Below, one piece after another: positions 1-31,200 of a DNA stretch of 64,000 nt. The position numbers were made by a program, and so were the translations under genes. The notes below the pieces were generated by a model. That model had not been told where the DNA came from. It searched no databases and saw nothing but the letters and a program-made list of their open reading frames with translations. The first letter of the stretch is position 1; each line of letters starts with the position of its first letter. Source of the DNA: Fodinibius halophilus (GTDB lineage Bacteria; Bacteroidota; Rhodothermia; Balneolales; Balneolaceae); the NCBI RefSeq assembly GCF_011059105.1, contig NZ_JAALLS010000001.1, positions 62,001 through 126,000 on the forward strand, in the 5' to 3' direction.

Positions 1-3000
1 TTTAACTCATTTTACGTCAATTTAGATAATTCACGGGTTATCTTAAATGGAGAAATTGACGGGGTTAATATTCTGGAGCCTGATTTTACTGCTCAACTAT
101 TAGAGGCTCATTACAATGTATGGGTGCGTTCTGAACAACTGCGTCCCCGTGATCTGCGTGATGTTATTCCCGCTCTGCCCAAAACTGATGCTTTGTTTAC
201 CTTAGATGTGGAAGCAGAAGGTACCACGGATTCTCTGGGCGTTGATTATGCATCCGTTGGTTTGGGAAAGAGTAGAATAAGTTTGAATGGTTCTTTTAAA
301 AAGTTGCAGAGTAAAGAAGCATTTTCATATGATATCTTTTTGGATGAGCTAACGTTGTACAAGAAGGATATTAATAAACTTACTCCTACGCTTTCTGCCC
401 CACAGTATCAGGCGTTAGAAAATCTTAGGGCTTCAGGTAAGGCCGCCGGTTCTTTAGATTCTGTAGAGGTTGACCTGCAGTTTGAGAGCCCACTTGGAGA
501 ACTGACTATGAAGGGACAGAGCGATTTAAAAGAGCCCTACGAGTACTCGGGTTCTCTTGAGGCTTCAAAGCTGGATGTTAGTCCACTGGTACCGGCTACA
601 TTTGATACTACATCTTTAAATTTTAGTGCTTCTCTGAGAGGCCGCGGGGTTACCCTTGGAAAAGCAAAAAGCTATTTTACTGCTACATTTACCAACAGTT
701 TTGCAGATCATATCCCTATTCAAGAGCTGGAGGTGACTTCGTCGTTGGCCAATAAGGTCTGGGAGCACGAATATAAATACAACAATGGTGATGAAAAGCT
801 GAGTGGTTCCGGTAATGTTGATTTCACCGAAAAGCCGTATGTATTGACAATGAGTGGCAGTGCCGACAATATGGATCTTGGAAAGCTGGTTAATAATACT
901 TCCGTAGTATCAACTAAGCTCAATTTTGATTATAACACAGAAATCGAAGATCTGCGGATCGATCACCTTCATGGGAGGGCAAACCTTGATGTTCGTCCCT
1001 CTGTAATTGGTGCCGACTCTGTACGTGCGCACCAGTTTTATGTAGATTTAAACGATGTGGATAAGGAGAATAGGTCTCTCCGGCTAACCAGTTCTGTGTT
1101 CGATATGAATGTATCCGGTGATATCAAGCCTAGAGCTATCATATCTCACAGCAAATTTTGGGTTCCTCTTTTGACGCAACAGTTTCGTAAAGAGGTATTG
1201 ATGGATACAACAGTTGTTACAGGTTCTGTACAACCTGAGCCTCCCCAAGAACCAATAGTACTGGAAGGGAGTATATCAGCAAAGGATCTGACGCTCATTA
1301 AACGATATATACCCAATTTCCCGACGATACAAACAGATTCCAAGATTTCATTCAGTGCCAATACCGATGGTACTCGTCTGCTGTTATCGGCCGAAGTGCA
1401 AGCTGATACCTTACACTATAATCAGTTTGATTTTAGCGACAGCCGTACACAAATGACAGCGAGTTTCAGAAGCGATCGTAGCTTCAAAGAGTTTTCGACA
1501 GTTGATCTCCAGACACGTATCGGAGAGGTGAAAACACCTTCTGTAGATATGGATTCCCTGGGATTTAATTTATCTGTCAAGCAAGATTCTGCACATTATA
1601 AACAATACGTAGGTAGTATTTCTGATAATGCCGAATTCAATATGACATTGAACTCATCATTATCAGATTCAACAATATCTGTGTCGATTCCCGAGTTTTA
1701 TGTAGGAAACAATAGATATGCATGGACAAACGAGCATCTGCCTTCTTTCTCTTACCATCGCAGCGGCGAGGTATCATTTCGAGATTTTAGTTTTCAGAAT
1801 CAAAATGAATATTTCAAACTGCAAGGAGTGCTCAGTAAAAACAGGACTGATTCGCTAACCTATATTTTACGTGATATTAAATTAGGGCGCATTTCGGAAT
1901 TAATTAAAGGAAAGATCAATTTCAGTGGTGTTTTGGATGGTACCCTTGTAACCCGATCTTTAACGCGCCGCCCGAGTATTCAGGGTGATCTCGATGTTGA
2001 GAAATTTCATTTAAATAATCGGTTGGTGGGCGATGTTACTTTCAACAGTGAGTTTAACCCAATAAACGAACAGTTCGACACCCAAATTGATATTAAAACT
2101 GACAGCACAAAATACAGTGATTATCTGAAATCTAACGATGGCATAGGGCAGGATATACGTCTTGATGGGTATTTCGTGACGCCCAAGCCAGAAGTAAAAC
2201 AGGATACCGTCTTCTATTTTGATGCGGATTTCAACCAAATCGATATGTGGGTGATTCCCCTTATTGTGGATAAGGTGTTTAAAAATATGGAGGGACAGGC
2301 TACCGGAGAGGGCTATATTACCGGTAACTTCGATGATTTTGACTTTAATGCCAATTTCGATACCAAAAATGTATTTGCCAAGCCCCGGTTTGTTAATACC
2401 AACTACTTTGTAAGTGGGCCTGTTGAATTTGATCGCCACAAGGGGGTAGTCCTCGATTCATTAGATGTTATGGATACAAAGGGAGGTACCGGAGTGGTTA
2501 CCGGGGTGGTAGATCTGAATGATTTTGATCCCATTACCTACCTTGATCTCACCCTTGATATGCAGCGGCTACAGTTCCTGAATAATACAATGGATCCCGA
2601 TGTGCCATTTTTTGGGAGTGTTTCGGGTACTGGCGTTGTTCGTCTCACAGGGTCCAATACCGATTTGTATATGAGAACGCAAAATCCGGTACGTGTGACC
2701 AGCGATTCGGAAGTTTCTATTCCATTACTCGAGGAAACGGAGCTGAGCAAGAACAGCAAATTTATTCGATTTGTAGAATCGTTTGATCAGTCAACGGAAG
2801 AAGCAGAAAATGGCAATAATGTAGATCCGGCCCAGATGGATGAAGAACAACTGGAGCTTGCTCTCGAAAATATGACATTTAGCGAGCGTTTTGATCTGGA
2901 TCTGCAATTTAATGCCCCTGAAAATATTACGGTAAATCTTATTTTTGATCCGGTATTGGGTGAGGTATTAACGGCACAGGGCACCGGGCAGATGCGTATT

Positions 3001-4014
3001 AGCATGCAAGACCAGGATGTTCAGATGTTTGGGCGCTATAATATTAATAGCGGGGATTATCAGTTTGTTACCGGTGAAATTATCAGTCGAAATCTAGAGT
3101 TGGAACCGGGAGGAACGATTGCGTGGGAAGGGCCGCCTGATAATGCACGGTTAGATATCAGTGCGGTTTATCGGGCCCGCCCCAATATTGCTACGCTCAC
3201 CTCAGAGACAACCCTGGAGTCTCAAAATCAAAGGAATGGGCAGCGTGTACCTATTGAACTTATTTTGGAGATTAACGGTACGCTAAACAGTGTAGAAAAT
3301 AATTACTACTTCCGCTTGCCGTCTTCAATTGATCTGTCTTCTAACTCAACAATGCAGTATACGATCAATCAAATAAATCGCGATGAAGAACAGAAATTAT
3401 TCCAAGCTACCAGTATTTTGCTTTCCGGGCAGTTTATTCCAACTGAAGGAACAGGTAGTGCAACGGCCTCACTGAGTCAAAACCTCACCAGGGGTTCAAC
3501 CGTAATAAATCCACTAATTTCTAACCAGGTAATAAGTCCATTATTATCTAACCAAATAAATGCGTTACTTAACAGTGATGTAAATCGGCTGGATGTAGAC
3601 TTTAATTTGAACGCCTATAATGAAGTCGATTTGGGAATTGCATTGCGATTGTATAACGATCGACTCATTTTACGGCGTGAAGGTCAGATTACAGGCGGTG
3701 GTTCACAACAGTCGTTTAGTGATCGTATAGGAGATATTAATGCAACCTACCGAATTCAGCGCGGATTATCGCTTACCGCTTTCCACCGCCAAGATCAGGT
3801 CTTGAACAGTCTGGGCAGCCCTGGAACACAAACCGGGGATGTTACGCCCAGTGTTGATGGCATTGGATTGGAATCCCAAGTACAATTTAATAGTTGGAAA
3901 GAGTTAATGGGAAGAATAAAAGATTTTTTTAACAGTATTTTTGGATCAAAGAAAAACAAAGAAAAAAGCAAAGAAGAATTATCTAATCAGAAAGCAGTAG
4001 AAGAAGAGAAGTAA
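1..4014 (+). CDS. TamB/DUF490-like translocation and assembly module protein (5' partial)
   Basis: The reading frame is open from base 1, so the gene starts before the window; about 1337 residues are visible. The visible part is long, repetitive and beta-rich (alternating hydrophobic residues, many D/N/T/S), as in the beta-taco groove of TamB/AsmA-like proteins. The last third, with conserved stretches such as GQMRISMQDQDVQMFGRYNI and then GDYQFVTGEI, corresponds to the TamB C-terminal (DUF490) domain that contacts the Omp85 partner. The C-terminus ends in a lysine/glutamate-rich tail. Family knowledge: TamB spans the periplasm from the inner membrane and works in outer-membrane assembly and lipid transport. 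RNase R follows 28 bp later. The family call rests on sequence pattern; the N-terminal anchor cannot be seen. Confidence 0.8.
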   Translation, partial: FNSFYVNLDNSRVILNGEIDGVNILEPDFTAQLLEAHYNVWVRSEQLRPRDLRDVIPALPKTDALFTLDVEAEGTTDSLGVDYASVGLGKSRISLNGSFKKLQSKEAFSYDIFLDELTLYKKDINKLTPTLSAPQYQALENLRASGKAAGSLDSVEVDLQFESPLGELTMKGQSDLKEPYEYSGSLEASKLDVSPLVPATFDTTSLNFSASLRGRGVTLGKAKSYFTATFTNSFADHIPIQELEVTSSLANKVWEHEYKYNNGDEKLSGSGNVDFTEKPYVLTMSGSADNMDLGKLVNNTSVVSTKLNFDYNTEIEDLRIDHLHGRANLDVRPSVIGADSVRAHQFYVDLNDVDKENRSLRLTSSVFDMNVSGDIKPRAIISHSKFWVPLLTQQFRKEVLMDTTVVTGSVQPEPPQEPIVLEGSISAKDLTLIKRYIPNFPTIQTDSKISFSANTDGTRLLLSAEVQADTLHYNQFDFSDSRTQMTASFRSDRSFKEFSTVDLQTRIGEVKTPSVDMDSLGFNLSVKQDSAHYKQYVGSISDNAEFNMTLNSSLSDSTISVSIPEFYVGNNRYAWTNEHLPSFSYHRSGEVSFRDFSFQNQNEYFKLQGVLSKNRTDSLTYILRDIKLGRISELIKGKINFSGVLDGTLVTRSLTRRPSIQGDLDVEKFHLNNRLVGDVTFNSEFNPINEQFDTQIDIKTDSTKYSDYLKSNDGIGQDIRLDGYFVTPKPEVKQDTVFYFDADFNQIDMWVIPLIVDKVFKNMEGQATGEGYITGNFDDFDFNANFDTKNVFAKPRFVNTNYFVSGPVEFDRHKGVVLDSLDVMDTKGGTGVVTGVVDLNDFDPITYLDLTLDMQRLQFLNNTMDPDVPFFGSVSGTGVVRLTGSNTDLYMRTQNPVRVTSDSEVSIPLLEETELSKNSKFIRFVESFDQSTEEAENGNNVDPAQMDEEQLELALENMTFSERFDLDLQFNAPENITVNLIFDPVLGEVLTAQGTGQMRISMQDQDVQMFGRYNINSGDYQFVTGEIISRNLELEPGGTIAWEGPPDNARLDISAVYRARPNIATLTSETTLESQNQRNGQRVPIELILEINGTLNSVENNYYFRLPSSIDLSSNSTMQYTINQINRDEEQKLFQATSILLSGQFIPTEGTGSATASLSQNLTRGSTVINPLISNQVISPLLSNQINALLNSDVNRLDVDFNLNAYNEVDLGIALRLYNDRLILRREGQITGGGSQQSFSDRIGDINATYRIQRGLSLTAFHRQDQVLNSLGSPGTQTGDVTPSVDGIGLESQVQFNSWKELMGRIKDFFNSIFGSKKNKEKSKEELSNQKAVEEEK

Positions 4015-4042: not shown

Positions 4043-6202
4043 ATGAGTAAAAGTAAAAAAGAAACATTCGAGGAAATTATCCTCAAAATTCTTCGCAAGA
4101 ATCCGAATGCGCATCTGCCATTCGATGTTCTGAAGAATATTTTGCAAATAAACAGTGGACAAGACAATAAACGATTAAAGAGTGTAATCAACAGTCTGTT
4201 TGACCGAAACCTTATCGTTAAACGTAAGGGCGGATCTATTCAGCTGGCCGGCAATGGACAAGAACAAAGTAAAAATACCGTTACCGGTAAGCTCGATATA
4301 AGCAGACGTGGCACCGGATATTTAATTACGGATGCCTTCGACGAAGATGTGCGTATTCCTTCAAAACATCTGGGAACTGCTCTACAGGATGATAAAGTAA
4401 AGGTAGAGCTCTTTAGCAGGGGGCGGAAAGATCGTCAAGAAGGAAAAGTTATTGAAGTACTAGAGCGCGGCAAAAGTATTTTTGTTGGTACCCTCAACAA
4501 ACAGGGTAAACAAAATTACCTTATTAAACCCGATGAAAAATCAGCCCATACAGAATTCTTTATTCTTCCCGACAATATTGGCTATGCCCAACCGGGAGAT
4601 AAAGTTGTCTTCGAACTCGTAGACTGGGTGCATCCGCAATCTTTGCCGGAAGCTAATATCGTTGAAATTCTTGGAAAAGAGGGCAGCAACGATGCCAATG
4701 TACTTTCCATATTGGCAGAAAATGATATTAAAGCCGGTTTTCCTGAAGAGGTGGTAGATTATGCCGAAAATATGGAAACTGGCATTACAGAGCACGAAAT
4801 TAATCGTCGACGCGATATCCGCGATGAGACGGTCTTTACGATTGATCCCGATACGGCTAAAGATTTTGATGATGCTCTGAGTATTAAAGTCCTAAATAAT
4901 GGTAACTATTACCTGGGCGTGCATATTGCCGATGTTACTCACTATATGCCACGTAATACCGTTCTTGATGATGAAGCCTATAACCGGGGAACCAGTGTAT
5001 ATCTTGTGGATCGGGTGATACCGATGCTGCCGGAGAAGCTCAGTAATGGGGTATGTAGTTTAAGTCCTCATGATGATAAATTAGCTTACAGTTGTTTTAT
5101 GGAGATTGCTCCCAATGGTAAAATGGTGGATTACTCTATCGAAGAGACGGTTATCCATTCTGATAAACGATTTACTTATGAACAGGCGCAAGAGGTTATT
5201 GACGGAGCCGACAGTGAATTTGCCGTGGAGATACAGACTGCAGCCAAGCTTGCACATACGCTGATCGACAAACGTTTTGCCGAAGGTAGTATTAACTTTG
5301 AAACACCTGAGCCAAAATTCATTTTAGATGATGATGGCACGCCTATTGATGTGAAACTTAAAGAACGATTGTTTGCACACCGGCTTATTGAAGAGTGTAT
5401 GTTGATGGCAAACCAAACCGTAGCCAAACATATAGACAATCTACGGGAACAATCTCATAAGAAAAATAATGATGATTTGTATCCGTTCTTATACCGTATC
5501 CACGATCAACCGGATCTTGACAAACTCAGAAATATTGAAGAAAATGTGAAACCTATTGGGATCAACTTTCATATTGATAGCCCAACAGTGAGCTCAAAAG
5601 CGATTAATGTATTGCTGGAACAGATAAAAGATACCTCGCTTGAACTCACGGTTAATGACTTGATGTTGCGGGCGATGTCGAAGGCAGAGTACAGCCCTGA
5701 CAATATTGGGCACTTTGGGCTTGGCTTTGAAGATTATGCACACTTTACCAGCCCCATCCGTCGTTACCCAGATGTACTGGTCCACCGCTTGCTGAAAAGC
5801 TACGGTGCCGGTAAACCGAGTTATTCATATAATGAACTAAAAAAGATGGGCTCACATTGCAGTGAGCAAGAACGATCTGCTATTGATGCAGAACGTGATT
5901 CGGTTAAGTTAAAACAAGTTGAATACCTAAGCCAACACCTCGGTGAAGATTTCGACGGGGTCATAAGTGGTGTAATGAGCAGTGGTGTGTTTGTGGATCT
6001 GAAAGATCTGCACTGCGAAGGGATGGTACGAGTAAGTGATTTAACCGATGATTATTATGAATACAAGGAAAATCAACATTGCTTGGTTGGACGAAATAAA
6101 GGCAAAAAGTATCAGCTGGGGAAAGAAATTCGTGTGAAAGTTGTTAAAACTGACATAGAAGCACGACAAATTGATTTGAAGCTTGTTGATGACGGTGAAT
6201 AA
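4043..6202 (+). CDS. rnr: Ribonuclease R (RNB-family 3'-5' exoribonuclease)
   Basis: 719 residues, a usual length for RNase R. In order: an N-terminal winged-helix segment (about 1-70), cold-shock-type RNA-binding domains (about 75-230), the RNB catalytic domain, and a C-terminal S1 domain (about 635-715, from the stretch GVISGVMSSGVFVDL). The catalytic signature DPDTAKDFDDA lies at residues 268-278, supplying the Mg-binding aspartates. The motif FTSPIRRYPD, typical of RNase II/R, is also present. The enzyme degrades structured RNA processively from the 3' end and takes part in RNA quality control and rRNA turnover. It follows the TamB-like gene closely on the same strand, which suggests co-transcription. 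Confidence 0.97.
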   Translation: MSKSKKETFEEIILKILRKNPNAHLPFDVLKNILQINSGQDNKRLKSVINSLFDRNLIVKRKGGSIQLAGNGQEQSKNTVTGKLDISRRGTGYLITDAFDEDVRIPSKHLGTALQDDKVKVELFSRGRKDRQEGKVIEVLERGKSIFVGTLNKQGKQNYLIKPDEKSAHTEFFILPDNIGYAQPGDKVVFELVDWVHPQSLPEANIVEILGKEGSNDANVLSILAENDIKAGFPEEVVDYAENMETGITEHEINRRRDIRDETVFTIDPDTAKDFDDALSIKVLNNGNYYLGVHIADVTHYMPRNTVLDDEAYNRGTSVYLVDRVIPMLPEKLSNGVCSLSPHDDKLAYSCFMEIAPNGKMVDYSIEETVIHSDKRFTYEQAQEVIDGADSEFAVEIQTAAKLAHTLIDKRFAEGSINFETPEPKFILDDDGTPIDVKLKERLFAHRLIEECMLMANQTVAKHIDNLREQSHKKNNDDLYPFLYRIHDQPDLDKLRNIEENVKPIGINFHIDSPTVSSKAINVLLEQIKDTSLELTVNDLMLRAMSKAEYSPDNIGHFGLGFEDYAHFTSPIRRYPDVLVHRLLKSYGAGKPSYSYNELKKMGSHCSEQERSAIDAERDSVKLKQVEYLSQHLGEDFDGVISGVMSSGVFVDLKDLHCEGMVRVSDLTDDYYEYKENQHCLVGRNKGKKYQLGKEIRVKVVKTDIEARQIDLKLVDDGE

Positions 6203-6232: not shown

Positions 6233-9200
6233 ATGAACGCATCTCAAATATTACGGCGATCGTTACTGCTCATACTGCTATTAGCATTGGGAGGAAGCCT
6301 TGTGCAAGAGGCTTCTGCCCAGTACCTCTCTTTTGGAAAAAACAGGGTGCAATACAAAGATTTTGACTGGAAATATATTCAGTCAGAACATTTTGATATC
6401 TATTATTATGAGTCTAAAAATTACGACTTGGCTAACTTTACTGCCTACTCGCTGGAGGCGGCCCTTAAGCAGTATCGAGACGATTTCGACCATGAGATAG
6501 CTGATCGTATCCAGGTAATTATTTACGATTCTCATAATGATTTCTCACAGACCAATGTGGTACCGTTACCGGTAGACGCCGAAGGTATCGGAGGGGTTAC
6601 CGATCCCTATAAAAACCGCATAACCATGCCTTTTGGGGGCGATTGGACGAAGTTCAGAAGTACCTTGCACCACGAACTGGAGCATGCCGTTATTAATGAC
6701 ATGTTTTATGGCGGAAGTGTGCAATCGCGGCTAAGTGGCAATGCCCTGCAAATACCGCTTTGGTTTAACGAAGGGATGGCCGAATATACGTCACTCGGAT
6801 GGGATACTAATACAGACATGTTTATCAGAGATGCTGTTATTAATAACTACTTGCCTCCTATTCCACGACTGGGAGGTTTCTTCGCATACCGGGGCGGACA
6901 GTCTGTTTGGAATTTTATAGCGGAGGAATATGGTCGTCAAAAGATTACAGAAATCATGCAAAACCTGAAGTCGTCTCGCAATATCGAGTTGACTTTTGAG
7001 CGAACGATGGGATTAGACATGGAGGAATTAAGTGAACGGTGGAAAGATTACTATCGTAAACGTTATCTGCCCGAAGTAGCTAATAGAGAGAAGATTTCAA
7101 GTTTTGCTGAAAACCTTACGGAACGCGATAAAAGAGGGGTCTATGATACGAGTCCGGCAATTTCTCCACAAGGAGATAAAATTGCCATGATTACTAATGA
7201 GCGCGGTTATTTTGACGTGGTTGTTATTAGTGCTATAACCGGGAAAAAAATTAAAACGCTTATTAAAGGGGAGGACAATATTAATTTTGAAGAGCTTAAT
7301 ATTCTAAACCCTAATCTTACGTGGTCGCCGGATGGTACCAAGATCGCCCTTTCTACAAAATCGAAGGGAGAAGATAACCTGGCTATTGTTGATTATAATA
7401 CCGGGAAAGTAAAAATGATCAGGTTCCCTAAAGTGGATGCAATTGGCTCTGTGGCGTGGTCGCCAGATGGCGATAAAATTGCGTTTGATGGAAATATTGG
7501 TCCTTACCAGGATATTTATGTGTATAACTTGCAGAGTAAAGAGTTTAACAACGTAACGAATGATGTAATCTCCGATTATAACCCTGCATGGGGGGGCGAT
7601 TCAGAAACTATTTATTTTACTTCAACACGGGGTGATGAAGTAACCCTAAATTCAGTAAAGAATTCGTCGCGGTTGTTATTGGATGATGATCTCTACAGTA
7701 CTGATATTTATGCTGTTACAATGGGGGATGCCAAGGCAAAACGGTTAACCAAAACACCCAAATGGAATGAACAACAGCCCGCCACAACCCATGATGGCCG
7801 ACTATTTTATGTGTCAGATGAAAATGGTATTTCCAATATTTATCAAATTGATCTAAGTGATCGTACGTCTAATCCGATAACAGACTTGCAGACAGGGGTT
7901 CGGCAGATGTCAATAAGTGCTGATGGTAGTCGATTGGCAGTAAACTCTATTAACGAAGGCGATCTGGATATTTTTATGGTGCAGTCTCCGCTCTCTCGTA
8001 AAAAGAATGCTCCTTTAGAACCTAATCATTGGGCAAAGCGGAGAGCCCAGGAAACTGAAGCAGAACGTGTGCCGGCCACAGGGTATGTTCGGGCAATGTT
8101 AACAAGCAACTCCCTTAGTGAGACAAGCTTAACAGACAAGGTGGCCGATAAAGTTGATCCAATGCCGAAAGAAGCTGTTGTTGATACCTTGGCGAAAACT
8201 GCTGAAGCAAAACAGGATACGACCCAACAGACGGGGCAAGAGTCTGAAAATATCGATTTTAGAAACTATGTTTTTGAATCTTCGGTAGAAGAAGATTCTG
8301 TCTTCAAAGAAAAATATCTGGATGCAGCCAAGTTTGATCTTGAAGGCAATAAGACAGAGGATGGCCGGTATCAACCCCAAAAATACCGATTGAAATTCAG
8401 CACGGATCTTATTTTTGCAGGGGGTAATTTTTCAACCAGCTATGGAACATACGGAATTACCCAGATTCAGTTTAGTGATCTCTTAGGTAACCACCAGATA
8501 TCATTTGGTAGTAACCTCAACCTTGATCTGAGAAACAGTACCTACTTTTTACAGTATGGTTACCTAAAAGAGCGTACTGATTGGCTCTTTAGCTTTTTTC
8601 ATAACTCAAATAACTTCCAGGACTTTTCGGGTCGCTTATACCGGTTTCGATCGTATGGAGGCGCTATAAATATGCGATATCCTTTCGATAAATTCCGTCG
8701 TATTGATGTGAGTTTATCAATGCTTGGATTGGCACAAGATTACACCGTTGCATTTCAGGATATCTCAGAAAACTTAACTTCCACCTTTCTACATCCGCAG
8801 GTAACTTACACGACTGATAGAACGCTAAGAGGTTTTATTACCCCCAGGGCCGGGTCCAGATATTCACTAAGTATTACCGGTAGTCCACCACTGACAGGAA
8901 GTACGCCTGAGTTTATTTCTGTATTAGGTGACTATAGAAAATACTTTAACCTCGGGTCACGGTATTCTTTCGCTGTTAGGGGATCTGGGGCAGCATCTTT
9001 TGGTAAAGAGTCTCAAAATTTCTTTATGGGAGGAATGCTGGGCTGGATAAATCAAAAATATTCCAACCAGAGTTTGCCAATAGAAGAATTGAGTGATCAG
9101 TTTTTTACTCAACCGGCACTGCCCCTGCGAGGGCATCCGTATAATGCAACCTATGGAGACAAATATACGCTGCTAAATGCGGAATTTCGATTCCCTCTAT

Positions 9201-9619
9201 TTGCAGCACTCTTGCCGGGACCTGTTCCTATTTTACCACTCTATAATCTTACAGGGATTGCATTTGTAGATGCTGGTATGGCCTGGGGTAAAGATATTCC
9301 GTTAGAAGTGTTTAATTCTCAAGGTCAGAATGAAAAAATTGCAACATTAAATGATAAGGATCTTAATTTTGCAATTGGAGAACAAGTAACCTATTACGTT
9401 AATCGTGGAACCTCGGATATAAAGAAAGAACCTCCAGCCAATCCCGATGATTATTTTGAAGTACCAGCAGTTGAAGGAGATATACTGATGGGTGCCGGCT
9501 TTGGTTTACGAACAATCTTGTTTGGGTTCCCGCTCCGTTACGACGTGGGGTGGCCTTATTACCGCAACGGATTTGGTGATGATCCCATCCACTATGTTAC
9601 TATTGGAATAGATTTCTAA
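6233..9619 (+). CDS. Secreted peptidase-MA-like / TolB-type propeller / Omp85-like barrel protein
   Basis: 1128 residues with a clear signal peptide (hydrophobic 9-25, ending ASAQ). The N-terminal third looks like a gluzincin of the peptidase MA-like type: HELEH at 147-151 and a downstream NEGMAEY (about 179-185) as the probable third ligand region. Residues about 290-620 hold WD40-like/PD40 propeller repeats (repeated 'SPDG.K.A' units). A low-complexity linker follows. The last 350 or so residues are beta-strand rich, end in aromatic GIDF, and carry the RGHPYN and FVDAGMAWG patterns seen in BamA/Omp85-type barrels. This suggests an outer-membrane protein with a periplasmic protease/propeller part. 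Domain order is seen; a metal-dependent activity and its substrate are inference. It is the last gene of the run beginning with the TamB-like gene. Confidence 0.75.
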   Translation: MNASQILRRSLLLILLLALGGSLVQEASAQYLSFGKNRVQYKDFDWKYIQSEHFDIYYYESKNYDLANFTAYSLEAALKQYRDDFDHEIADRIQVIIYDSHNDFSQTNVVPLPVDAEGIGGVTDPYKNRITMPFGGDWTKFRSTLHHELEHAVINDMFYGGSVQSRLSGNALQIPLWFNEGMAEYTSLGWDTNTDMFIRDAVINNYLPPIPRLGGFFAYRGGQSVWNFIAEEYGRQKITEIMQNLKSSRNIELTFERTMGLDMEELSERWKDYYRKRYLPEVANREKISSFAENLTERDKRGVYDTSPAISPQGDKIAMITNERGYFDVVVISAITGKKIKTLIKGEDNINFEELNILNPNLTWSPDGTKIALSTKSKGEDNLAIVDYNTGKVKMIRFPKVDAIGSVAWSPDGDKIAFDGNIGPYQDIYVYNLQSKEFNNVTNDVISDYNPAWGGDSETIYFTSTRGDEVTLNSVKNSSRLLLDDDLYSTDIYAVTMGDAKAKRLTKTPKWNEQQPATTHDGRLFYVSDENGISNIYQIDLSDRTSNPITDLQTGVRQMSISADGSRLAVNSINEGDLDIFMVQSPLSRKKNAPLEPNHWAKRRAQETEAERVPATGYVRAMLTSNSLSETSLTDKVADKVDPMPKEAVVDTLAKTAEAKQDTTQQTGQESENIDFRNYVFESSVEEDSVFKEKYLDAAKFDLEGNKTEDGRYQPQKYRLKFSTDLIFAGGNFSTSYGTYGITQIQFSDLLGNHQISFGSNLNLDLRNSTYFLQYGYLKERTDWLFSFFHNSNNFQDFSGRLYRFRSYGGAINMRYPFDKFRRIDVSLSMLGLAQDYTVAFQDISENLTSTFLHPQVTYTTDRTLRGFITPRAGSRYSLSITGSPPLTGSTPEFISVLGDYRKYFNLGSRYSFAVRGSGAASFGKESQNFFMGGMLGWINQKYSNQSLPIEELSDQFFTQPALPLRGHPYNATYGDKYTLLNAEFRFPLFAALLPGPVPILPLYNLTGIAFVDAGMAWGKDIPLEVFNSQGQNEKIATLNDKDLNFAIGEQVTYYVNRGTSDIKKEPPANPDDYFEVPAVEGDILMGAGFGLRTILFGFPLRYDVGWPYYRNGFGDDPIHYVTIGIDF

Positions 9620-9667: not shown

Positions 9668-10996
9668 CTATCGGCCTATAACGCGTTTTACTTTGAGTAT
9701 CCGATCAAACTTTTTATCAGGATCTTTAAAGTAAACAAACGTCAAATACTCTTGTTGCGCCGATAGAAATCCATGATCCAGGGCGAGGTCGTAAATACGA
9801 TTTGAGCGTACAAGTACGTATTTATAGGCGTACTGCCCCTGCTTGACCAAGGCGTTACCTTCCCAAAGCTTTCGGTCGCTATTATATTGCATCTTATTAA
9901 GCGGGGTAATCATCCAGTTATTGAAATGCCCCACAATATAAATATTTGATGAGGCAGAAAATTTGGAGTTTGTTTCCAATGAAAATCTCACACGACCATA
10001 TTCGCTATTTCTATGGTTTTGAGGTCTTCCCAGAACAGATGCTGATCGATGTTGGGCGTTGGTATCCAGCGTTTGTGAGTCGCGACGAAGCAGTACCGAG
10101 GGCGGGGTTTTTCCGGGGGTGTACTCAATAATTTGTTGCCCGTCAGGGGTAAAGGATCTCAAATCAAGTACGTTAAATTCATAATTTCCGATATAAGTCT
10201 GGTTTCGCCTGAGATGCCCGTGTAATTGCCCCGGATCTATGGTATCAAGGAATCCGGCTTCTTTCATTCGCCCCCAAAAACGGTTTTGCACAAACGAGAT
10301 TGAAAGATCGAACTGGGGATACTCAACAAATTCGGGATAGTGATAGGTGCTAAACGGCTGGTCCAGGGGGCGGCCATCTTTACGTTTACTGTATAATCTT
10401 TCAATACGTGTGTCGAGACTCCCTTTATTTTCAGTAATAAAGAATGGAACAGAGAAAAGAAGCTCACCGCTTGTATAACTGTATATTTCTAACAGGTAAT
10501 TGCCACTTACCGCGGGGCGAAGTTTGCCGGGAAACTCATGCTCTACATGCCAATACGAGGTGCGCTGGCTAAAACTTTCCCGGGCACTCTGTATGTACGT
10601 GTGTGAAAAACTGTTGAGGTAGGTAGAAGGAGAGATAGTACTTTTTTTCCAGTCTTGAGTACGATGAGAAACCTGTATTCTAAACTGGCGGCTTTCTTCT
10701 GCCAGGTAATCGAAAGAGAGTACCAGCTTTTGTTGTGAGCCTAATGATAGTATCGGGGCTCCGTTGGGATTGCCTTTTGGGTGCAGTTGAATGCTTTGTA
10801 TATCTCTTGGGGGAGCTTTTTGCTGGGGTAGGGCAAGGCTGTTTTTCAGTCCATTAGAAACAGGGTGGGTATAGTTATTATCGCCGGAATATTCTTTTGA
10901 TGGCGCGCAACCCATCCCCAACAATAATACTAAAACTATAAAAATTGATTTGCTATAAGAATGTACCTTTGAAAACAAAATGGGCAGGACCTTCAA
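9668..10996 (-). CDS. DUF5103 family protein, type IX secretion system Plug
   Basis: Up to 442 residues. The body matches the DUF5103 family: the stretches YPQFDLSISFVQNRFW and GHLRRNQTYIGNYEFNV in the middle, then a C-terminal immunoglobulin/CBM48-like segment (VGHFNNWMITPLNKM... QGQYAYKYVL). In Flavobacterium, DUF5103 Plug closes the periplasmic side of the SprA translocon when PorV and substrate are absent. The N-terminus has a hydrophobic stretch ending LLLGMGC, a weak lipobox. The outermost start is TTG at 10996, inside the 3' end of dapF (44-nt overlap); a second in-frame TTG at 10978 is equally possible and there is no ATG before the signal. It is last in the ccmB-holB-dapF run, while its presumed partner sprA lies at 25290. 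Confidence 0.8.
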   Translation of the reverse strand: MKVLPILFSKVHSYSKSIFIVLVLLLGMGCAPSKEYSGDNNYTHPVSNGLKNSLALPQQKAPPRDIQSIQLHPKGNPNGAPILSLGSQQKLVLSFDYLAEESRQFRIQVSHRTQDWKKSTISPSTYLNSFSHTYIQSARESFSQRTSYWHVEHEFPGKLRPAVSGNYLLEIYSYTSGELLFSVPFFITENKGSLDTRIERLYSKRKDGRPLDQPFSTYHYPEFVEYPQFDLSISFVQNRFWGRMKEAGFLDTIDPGQLHGHLRRNQTYIGNYEFNVLDLRSFTPDGQQIIEYTPGKTPPSVLLRRDSQTLDTNAQHRSASVLGRPQNHRNSEYGRVRFSLETNSKFSASSNIYIVGHFNNWMITPLNKMQYNSDRKLWEGNALVKQGQYAYKYVLVRSNRIYDLALDHGFLSAQQEYLTFVYFKDPDKKFDRILKVKRVIGR

Positions 10997-28200: not shown

Positions 28201-31200
28201 GCCAGAATAATATAGAGTTTTTAGAATTTTGGGTACAATCGGTATTGCCCGACGGTAAAAGTCCAACGGCCCAGGATCTGCAGGATTATGAGGGTAAAAT
28301 ATATATCGATATAGGGGTGGTTTCGGAAGATGTAATACCAAACTTTAAGACCAATACCGAAGATGGGTTGGTGCGCAATCCCAATGATCTGCAAGAGGAT
28401 AATATCGGGGGCGATGCCCGCTCTTTTATCCCGGTTCCACCACCGGCCCCAGAGGGGCAGTTTGCAAATGAAACGCAAGAAGAGGCCGATGTGGGGTTAG
28501 ATGGAGCACCTAATTCGGAGGGAGTTGACAATAAAAATGAACAAAACCTCTTTTCCGATTTTATAAATAATATGAAGTCGCAATATGGGGGAGCAAGCAA
28601 AGAGTTTAGCAGAATAGTGACGGACCCCTCAAATGATGATTATTTCTATTATGGGCAAGATGAGGTGGATGGGAAACCATTGCATAAACGATTTCACCGG
28701 ATGTTTGGCTACCACGATGGAAACTCTCCACCAAATGAAGGTGATAAACGTGCCGTAACCAATAAGCCTGATACCGAAGGGTTGATTACCCCATCGATTG
28801 TAGAGCAGAATAATGCTTATTTCCAGTATGAAATTGATTGGAATCCCGCTGATTTTTCTGAGCTTGAACCGGGTACAGAGGGAACTTTTATTGTTGATAA
28901 AGTAGACGGTCCTAAACAGCAAGATCGCTGGTACCAGGTTCGTTTACCACTTGAAGATTGGGTGCGAAAAGTGGGAGGTATCCAGAATTTTCAGAATATC
29001 TCGTATATCCGGGTTTGGCTTTCGGGATATGAAAAACCGTTTACTTTGCGTTTTGCCACCTTTGAACTGGTTGGTAGCCAGTGGCGAAGAGCCGAAAATG
29101 TGGGAGATGAACAAGGACCATTGCAGGGGGAATTTAATATATCATCTGTCAACATTGAGGAAAACAGCCAGCGTGAACCAATTCCTTACCGGCAGCCAGA
29201 AGGGGCTATTCGTGCAAAAAACAGGGGGCGACAGCGCCAAACGATTGAAAATGAACAATCCATTGTAATGGATGTTGAGAACCTGGGCCCCGGAGAGTTG
29301 ACCATGATGAAGCGGGTGTACCCCGGTGGGCTAAATATGGTGAACTACTCCAATGTTCGCATGTTTATTCATGGAGAGGGATATAAGAACAGGGAGGATG
29401 CTGAGCTGGTTATGCGTTTTGGTACCGATTTAACAAATAACTATTACGAGTACCGGCAACCTATTTCACCTACAAACAAAAACTTTCCATTCAGTTCAGA
29501 TCCTATCGGAGAGCTGGGACAAGCAGAGGTTGAGCTCGAGGCCGAAAAAGTATGGCTCTACGACCAAAATAGCATGAATATTTTGTTGAGGGCCTTTAAT
29601 GAATTAAAACAGCTGAGAGATCAGCAGGGGGGAGATACAGGCGAGCTGTTTAGCTGTACAAACTGTAGTAAACTCTTGAAGAATGCAGCACCGGGTGCCA
29701 GTATAGCCATAAAAGGGAATCCTTCGTTAGATCGTATCGGGGAAATTGGTATGGGGATTCGTAATCCGTTTAACCCCGAAAATCCCTCGGATGGGGGAAT
29801 ATCATCATTAAGCGGGCAGTTTTGGTTTAATGAACTCCGGGTATCCGGCTTTGACAACAAGAAAGGATGGGCAGCAAAAGCTAAGGGCGAAATACAGTTT
29901 GCTGATTTTGCCACCTTTAATGCTAATTTTAACCGTGAAACGGACGGTTTCGGTTCATTAAGTTCGGGACTGGGGCAACGTCGGCTATCGGATGTATTGG
30001 CCTACGACCTTAATTCAACGGTGAATATTCATAAATTTATCCCAGAACGTTTTGGATGGAATATTCCCGTTTCCCTTTCAACCCGGCAGTCATCATCTAC
30101 GCCTCGCTATTTACCTAATGCAGGGGATGTTCGACTTTCTGATTTTAAAAATGCGGTAAATGCCAGAAATGATATCGGGGAGCAAGAAAAGCAGCGGCTT
30201 ATCAATCAAAAAATAAAGCAAAGCCAAACAGTTACAGAAAGTTATTCGGTCAATATTTCCAATGTCTCGAAATCTCGGTCGAAGTCTGATTTCGCCCAGT
30301 ATACTCTGGATAAGACAACGTTGAATTATGTATATAACACTACGAAACGGCGTAATCCTCAGTATTCTTTTCAAGATAATTGGAATTACAGCAGCTCGCT
30401 GCGCTACGATGTAAATTTTCCGAATACAAGGCTCTTTCGGCCATTTGGGTTCCTCGGGGAAGTACCCATATTGCACCCGCTTGCAGGGTTGCAATTAGGG
30501 TATACGCCGGCCTCTATTAATGCTTCGCTAGGTATTGATCGCGAATATGATGAGCAGCTTCGCCGATTCACTGCGGGTGAAACCGAGTCGAAAGTACAAC
30601 AGTCGCATAGCTTTACGTACGATACAGAATTTGGGCTCGGATATAATTTTACGCCCTCTATAAAAACCACTTTCCAAAGCCGATCGGTATTTGACCTTTC
30701 CAGGGCAGGTATCAATGGGGCGGGGACGGGGGATCCGCTTTCTGATTCAACAAAATATTCGGTCAGGCCTACCTTCGATGTGCTTAGTGATGTTGCCTTT
30801 GATACCCTTTCACCAAGAAGAAGTAACTATGAGGAGGGATATACGGCCGGCTGGCAACCACGGTTAGGGTCTATTAAAGCAATTAACTGGATCAGTTATT
30901 CGGCGAACTACGGAGGGGGCTATCAATGGCGAAATAGTTCCAGGGGATCGCAGCTGGGAGCCAATGTGTCGAATAATCTGACGCTAAATCAGTCGTTGGA
31001 TTTCGACATACGGAGCCTCTTTAATAAAATGGACTGGTATGAAAACCTGCAAAACGACGATAGAAATAAGCTGCAACAACCAGTTGAATCCGATACTACG
31101 GAGGCGGGGTACTCACAGAATGATTTCGGCGAAACGTTAGCTGAAATTGGCAAGAAGAGTCTGGCAGCCCTATTGAGCATACAGTCGCTTGAGTTTTCTT

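Follow-up and report, generated by a model that had tools for sequence, protein, structure and literature searches.

A predicted zinc peptidase, TolB-type propeller and Omp85 barrel in one chain, encoded near a TamB-type gene in Fodinibius halophilus

Omp85 proteins without POTRA domains were described in 2014 from sequence, with functions that were proposed only; among them, the WD40-Omp85 subfamily joins a TolB-like propeller to an Omp85 barrel and was likened to a BamA-BamB fusion (Heinz and Lithgow 2014, PMC4104836). BamB itself is a separate eight-bladed lipoprotein (PMC8292188). The zinc peptidase BepA aids the assembly of LptD on the BAM complex and degrades LptD if assembly fails (PMC8423444), and a TamB-TamL interaction is predicted in F. 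johnsoniae, where the two genes lie apart (PMC12045153). Here we describe a gene at positions 6233-9619 (+) of a 64,000-nucleotide stretch of the Fodinibius halophilus genome (contig NZ_JAALLS010000001.1, positions 62,001 to 126,000; hereafter the window). Its product and the family to which it belongs are called PPO, for protease-propeller-Omp85 protein.

A literature search, whose coverage left out most subscription papers and all preprints, found no paper on a three-part peptidase-propeller-Omp85 protein, on the order of its gene relative to those of TamB and RNase R, or on its catalytic loss. What was known already is thus the propeller-Omp85 fusion of 2014, whilst nothing was found on the peptidase head, on the TamB/RNase R neighbourhood or on the branch without HExxH described below. 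We tentatively propose that PPO may be a station for outer-membrane assembly and quality control, working close to TamB.

Architecture and conservation of PPO

The PPO gene is an intact open reading frame (ORF) with an ATG start, encoding 1128 residues with no cysteine in the whole chain. All features of the gene lie on the forward strand. A signal peptide can be recognized by eye at residues 1-29 (6233-6319), with ASA at its end and no lipobox cysteine; in the AlphaFold2 model residues 3-24 form a helix and confidence is low over residues 20-36. Next comes a gluzincin-type zinc-peptidase domain (residues 31-295 as folded alone; 6323-7117), which opens with the family signature FGKNRVQYKDFDW, has G35, Q40 and W46 as invariant residues, and contains the HExxH motif as HELEH (residues 147-151; 6671-6685) and the sequence E180-G-M-A-E184 (6770-6784), with E180 as the presumed third zinc ligand. 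A TolB-type beta propeller (about residues 300-590; 7130-8002) is followed by a partly helical linker (residues 591-717; 8003-8383), in which pLDDT falls below 50 at residues 628-698 and which carries the motif IDFRNYVF (residues 674-681; 8252-8275) some 40 residues ahead of the first barrel strand. The chain closes with an Omp85 barrel (residues 718-1128; 8384-9616) whose final residue is Phe; it includes the loop-6 motif RGHPYN (residues 966-971; 9128-9145) and, as FVDAGMAWG (residues 1011-1019; 9263-9289), the strand-13 motif FxDxG. An earlier note, made from the sequence of the window, had read signal peptide, HELEH gluzincin motif, TolB repeats, linker and barrel in this one chain, and the reading frame, Pfam, the AlphaFold2 model and the fold matches all agree with it.

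The domain assignments come from profiles and from predicted structure. Peptidase_MA_2 (PF13485) matched the N-terminal slice with E 3.3e-14 (53.6 bits against a cut-off of 32.4) and Omp85 (PF01103) matched the slice of residues 700-1128 with E 4.1e-13 (50 bits against a cut-off of 24); in the whole-chain Pfam scan, PD40 repeats (E 2e-16) and Peptidase_MA_2 were listed, Omp85 appearing on the slice only. Against the NCBIfam models for TolB (TIGR02800, 110 bits against a cut-off of 343) and BamA (46.8 bits), PPO scores far under the equivalog cut-offs, PPO thus being neither of the two. No POTRA domain (PF07244) was found by the whole-chain and slice Pfam scans or by NCBIfam, whereas the same Pfam scan did find POTRA in the Omp85 proteins C34, C56 and C10 of the same genome. 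Patatin, PF00149 and M48 identities were also considered and set aside, no such domain appearing in the Pfam scans of whole chain and slices; these scans gave no match to M9 either, the family that is closest by fold.

From PPO aligned with 50 relatives (51 sequences), AlphaFold2 gave a full-chain model with pLDDT 81.2 and pTM 0.77. The strands of the predicted barrel span residues 722-1124 and number 16 by our own assignment; RGHPYN precedes strand 12 and FVDAG lies within strand 13, a placement that we take to match that in known Omp85 proteins. In structure comparisons, residues 723-1128 matched Deinococcus BamA (Z 23.0, rmsd 4.3, 306 residues) and residues 315-591 matched TolB (1c5k; Z 28.2, rmsd 2.2, 243 residues aligned). 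The suggestion of the earlier note that the C-terminal part is an Omp85 barrel is borne out by the model and by the BamA match. The peptidase domain, folded alone with pLDDT 84.8, had gluzincins as all 50 of the matches listed, at 10-16% identity. The best were the M9 collagenases (Z 17.6, rmsd 3.8, 231 aligned, 13% identity), followed by M30 (Z up to 15.5) and the M1 aminopeptidases (Z 12.6-13.9, where the comparison tool cautions that values below about 13 may be chance for helical folds). When the peptidase profile was run against the sequences of solved structures, just two matches came back, both at chance level (E 0.53 and 0.67), so the peptidase is placed by fold comparison only. In profile, predicted 16-strand barrel and RG and FxDxG motifs, PPO thus has the features of the Omp85 superfamily, and the HExxH motif with a downstream Glu, set in a gluzincin-type predicted fold, gives it those of a gluzincin.

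PPO is not a local oddity: the family is widespread, and an 86-row tree of its members needs no more than the minimum number of changes between groups. A homologue at E <=1e-20 was present in 57 of the 58 genomes searched, our own included, the one miss being a 78% complete genome. A match to the PPO profile, paralogues included, was found in all 146 sampled genomes of the class that are at least 90% complete, and in the phylum sample in 192 of 296 genomes and 121 of 139 genera. The 51-sequence alignment shows either no variation or conservation of at least 90% at H147, E148, H151, E180, E184, R966, G967, F1011, D1013 and G1015. The BamA-like patterns that the earlier note saw in RGHPYN and FVDAGMAWG therefore hold at R966, G967, F1011, D1013 and G1015, whilst the other letters of the motifs that the note named vary. 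Among the 86 family members HExxH is present in 82 and the full HEH-E-E set in 81, with one altered at the second Glu and four Bacteroidota members having lost the set; the loop-6 RG is kept in 85, and FxDxG is complete in 82, its F and D occurring in all 85 rows that have those columns. HExxH was also present in 27 of 32 further loci from the phylum and absent from five.

In all six groups that were compared, the peptidase is the PPO domain with the highest conservation. Within our own clade, Balneolales as judged by a tree (with loci L064 and L096 assigned by identity only), mean identities are 73% (peptidase), 59% (propeller), 58% (barrel) and 36% (linker); between this clade and Ignavibacteria the values are 50%, 41%, 38% and 9%. 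Within the linker, an IDFRNYVF-type pattern recurs in all 34 own-clade sequences, 6 of 10 from Ignavibacteria, 13 of 19 from the same class outside the order and 4 of 4 from Bacteroidota, compared with none of 14 paralogues and none of five others. It is expected by chance in shuffled linkers at no more than 0.009 per sequence, and these counts describe rather than test the motif because the pattern was composed after the alignment had been viewed. The distance from the end of the motif to the column of residue 712 is 28-31 residues in Ignavibacteria as in our own clade; it is 28-37 in the same-class loci outside the order and 28-64 in Bacteroidota. The paralogues form a clade found in many genomes of the class, represented here by 14 rows that are mostly about 1040 residues long and usually end in PGW. 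These sequences (L104, L105, L106 and L126-L136) keep HExxH and RG and lack the linker pattern; no TamB is labelled in the stretches fetched around the 14 loci.

Gene order and the TamA question

PPO lies at the end of the order NFACT, shikimate kinase, 3-dehydroquinate (DHQ) synthase, TamB, RNase R. The RNase R gene (4043-6202, +; 719 residues; TIGR02063, E 1.2e-228) starts 28 bp after TamB and ends 30 bp before PPO. The TamB-type gene is present as its 3' part (1-4014, +); its full frame of 1578 codons starts 723 bases upstream of the window, and its product has a hydrophobic N-terminus by eye. PF04357 matched it with E 9.3e-37 in a genome search and with E 1.5e-36 on a C-terminal slice, the whole-protein Pfam scans not listing it. 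A TamB-like gene near PPO, as the earlier note had it, is therefore confirmed, with RNase R between the two.

The gene order was followed in 54 loci (35 from our own clade, 10 from Ignavibacteria and nine others) and in 32 further phylum loci, which represent 24 families hand-picked from listed places, f22, f25, f33, f37 and f52 (weaker matches with no listed place) being left out. The triple TamB-RNase R-PPO occurs in 33 of the 35 own-clade loci, the remaining two being cut by contig ends, and in nine of the 10 from Ignavibacteria, where different genes, by eye an RfaE-like pair, lie upstream of TamB. The tenth, L082, has RNase R, but the 1.1 kb that remain of its contig contain no TamB; tblastn with two TamBs gave one chance-level match (E 0.63), and the locus was counted as a miss. 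In the 32 phylum loci the triple was found in 10 (L202 being identical to L076), RNase R only in one and RNase R at a contig end in one. The gene order that the earlier note proposed to look for in relatives is thus kept in our own clade, in Ignavibacteria and in a part of the phylum. It is not seen in the Bacteroidota branch, in same-class loci beyond the order or in 20 of the 32 phylum loci. On a PPO tree that is quick, midpoint-rooted and without bootstrap, with weak deep branches, the TamB-linked loci fall into four separate groups and three neighbourhood states require six changes. This fits an old arrangement lost several times. No mechanism was found by which RNase R would be a meaningful partner of PPO. 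A scan for promoters and terminators, with 12 promoter-like sites (15.7 in shuffles) and seven terminator-like sites (4.4 in shuffles), has little bearing on the existence of an operon.

The proximity of TamB had suggested an analogy with TamA, and this part of the earlier note is not supported. No POTRA was found in PPO, its barrel stands apart from those of TamA and TamL, and its genome also holds a POTRA-Omp85 beside another TamB and a TamL-type Omp85. There are five Omp85 matches and two TamBs in the genome. The second TamB, C34, follows a 663-residue POTRA-Omp85 in one operon; the best NCBIfam match of this Omp85 is BamA (232 bits), ahead of TamL (154) and TamA (136), all under the cut-offs, so that its label as TamA-type rests on the TamB neighbour and the barrel tree. 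Another POTRA-containing Omp85, C56 (802 residues), scores 322 bits against a cut-off of 400 with the TamL model, and its barrel is sister to TamL/TamL2 (support 99/96). In the barrel tree the C34 protein groups with other TamB-linked POTRA-Omp85 proteins, the C10 protein groups with BamA, and the PPO barrels form a separate branch (100/99) with none of BamA, TamA or TamL, long branches being flagged. The idea of PPO as the TamA equivalent was accordingly lowered. Given the C34 and C56 proteins and the case of TamB and TamL in F. johnsoniae, the TamB of the window may well have a TamL-type partner encoded elsewhere, PPO being an additional component.

The TamB proteins themselves divide in an unrooted tree (100/100), with the TamB of the window on the Bacteroidota side and C34 and the Ignavibacteria TamBs on the other. 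The Ignavibacteria proteins are called TamB from phmmer matches to our own two and from profile comparison. Their profile aligns end to end with the TamB of the window (1407 columns, hhalign probability 99.9, E 1.3e-32), and over 985 columns only with C34 (E 7.8e-22).

Several side observations were made at these loci. The two TamB C-termini of the genome differ, that of the window being a charged tail like those of the Bacteroidota rows and that of C34 (L100) an aromatic residue. By eye, in six same-class loci outside the order (L110, L112, L113, L115, L116 and L118) PPO follows a gene for an ABC-2 exporter permease, itself preceded in five of the six by an ATPase gene, and a trigger-factor-like gene follows PPO in L112, L113 and L118. 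YicC-like ORFs, also by eye, lie next to PPO in L095, one gene away in L090, and beside a POTRA-Omp85 in the Ignavibacteria locus L166. Elsewhere in the window, a type 9 secretion plug-like protein is encoded convergently to PPO (9668-10996, -) and there is a match to SprA_N, of the translocon of the type 9 secretion system (28560-30143, +); on these two sequence matches the organism may have such a system.

Possible roles of PPO

Omp85 barrels have their N-terminus on the periplasmic side, as is established for BamA and TamA, so the PPO head is by analogy most likely to sit there. If PPO is an assembly and quality-control station, the propeller and the peptidase groove would catch unfolded or stalled outer-membrane clients, and the barrel, with its loop-6/strand-13 lock kept, would remain in the membrane as an anchor or assembly platform. 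The peptidase would then cleave failing clients, much as BepA does at the BAM complex. We infer for PPO the periplasmic side of the head, the proteolysis, the clients and any contact with TamB. The family is wide in class and phylum, keeps its active-site and barrel-lock residues and occurs in a TamB cluster in several deep lineages. In favour of such a station we also count the strong conservation of the peptidase, the lack of cysteines and the near-constant place of the linker motif, together with a gene order that is kept although the genes upstream differ between our own clade and Ignavibacteria. The loop-6 RG and FxDxG have a known role in Omp85 barrels, and their retention argues that the barrel does more than anchor. 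A bolder and more doubtful form of the idea would make PPO a single-chain assembly-and-disposal machine, in which an insertase barrel carries both a propeller for binding clients and a zinc protease. It would receive clients by way of TamB or work next to it, the linker motif would be a docking or gating peptide, and the Bacteroidota protease would be a dead-enzyme module that binds clients.

A number of findings weigh against a quality-control station near TamB. The triple is absent from all nine distant loci of the 54-locus set, the 42 linked loci of that set are not independent, some being near-copies, and in 20 of the 32 phylum loci neither TamB nor RNase R lies directly upstream of PPO. 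The Ignavibacteria TamBs have no Pfam TamB match, the Pfam match being AsmA instead. PPO lies away from TamB in each of the 19 loci from the same class outside the order (presumably Rhodothermales). In all 12 such loci that have a C1-type TamB, among 15 (L149 and L150, with RNase R alone, and L151, with another TamB, being left out), this TamB comes after DHQ synthase, and in eight of the 12 RNase R comes directly after TamB in the absence of PPO; two of 14 genomes examined had just one TamB, a longer one. Since TamB and RNase R stay paired without PPO, the link between PPO and TamB may be inherited or may run through RNase R. Catalysis also seems to be dispensable in places: all nine sampled copies of the Bacteroidota branch, one branch on the tree, lack HExxH. 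These copies keep full length, and the four in which the barrel motifs were counted all have RG and FxDxG, so proteolysis cannot be the sole role of the family. The head therefore seems to retain a use without catalysis in this branch, which offers a built-in natural comparison of the two proposed roles of PPO. Conversely, the barrel can be missing. A 1902-base gene on plasmid pSR116 of Salinibacter ruber (L204, 2929-4830), annotated 'basic secretory protein-like protein', encodes a 634-residue homologue that matches PPO over query residues 24-614 only, that is, peptidase and propeller.

The plasmid protein fits more readily with a barrel that is an anchor only, PPO then being a periplasmic peptidase tethered to the outer membrane, with general housekeeping targets and no role in insertion or transport. 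The high conservation of the peptidase points the same way, but the lock motifs are kept almost universally, beyond the needs of a plain anchor, and persist even where HExxH has gone, so that we consider this explanation somewhat unlikely. Less likely again is that the adjacent TamB has its outer-membrane partner in PPO, which would then stand in for TamA or TamL, with propeller and peptidase replacing POTRA. The conserved gene order speaks for such a partnership, as does the situation in Ignavibacteria, where each of six genomes has a single TamB-profile match, located in the PPO cluster, where this TamB aligns more fully with that of the window than with C34, and where PPO gives a weak match to the TamL model (E 2.1e-9, 36 bits against a cut-off of 400). 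However, POTRA is present in both Omp85 proteins examined from Ignavibacteria, and their barrels group with the C34 Omp85, which in our own genome already stands beside the second TamB; there is the full-length TamL-like C56 protein as well; the PPO barrels form a branch of their own; and the order is lost in the same class outside the order. The least probable of these explanations is self-display, in which the barrel would carry the peptidase-propeller head of the same chain out to the cell surface, a route suggested for the patatin-Omp85 PlpD (type Vd). PPO shares with PlpD, as described in PMC4104836, an N-terminal enzyme and a C-terminal Omp85 barrel, and it has a long flexible linker. 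Yet that linker contains a conserved motif, and the head, as the most conserved part of PPO, is unlike a fast-evolving surface passenger. Also, POTRA, which PlpD-type proteins keep, was not found in PPO.

Comparison with known systems

A station of this kind near TamB would resemble several described systems without coinciding with any. Patatin-Omp85 proteins differ in having patatin and POTRA, neither of which was found in PPO. The 'Metallo' (metalloprotease) group of Omp85 proteins carries PF00149 (PMC4104836), a domain not found in PPO, and the catalytic unit of the M9 collagenases, the closest solved fold to the PPO peptidase, is matched at low identity and with no M9 match in Pfam. With TamA and TamL, PPO shares an Omp85 barrel and a gene that can lie with tamB, although RNase R intervenes and the linkage is not seen in all lineages; it differs in the absence of POTRA and in its separate barrel branch. 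BamA with BamB places a propeller on the periplasmic side of an Omp85 barrel, but there BamA has POTRA and BamB is separate, whereas the PPO propeller is of TolB type and is fused to a barrel lacking POTRA. In domain order PPO resembles WD40-Omp85, where a propeller also lies N-terminal to the barrel and POTRA is absent; the main-text description of that subfamily names no peptidase, nor does any word beginning 'peptidase' occur there (PMC4104836), whilst PPO has a predicted one. As is proposed here for PPO, BepA is a zinc peptidase of the periplasm that handles clients at an Omp85 protein (PMC8423444). It is, however, a separate protein of the M48 family, whereas the PPO peptidase, without an M48 match, is fused to the barrel; the proposed likeness in function does not depend on a shared peptidase family. 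Should outer-membrane clients be substrates of the PPO peptidase, one molecule would combine assembly with quality control.

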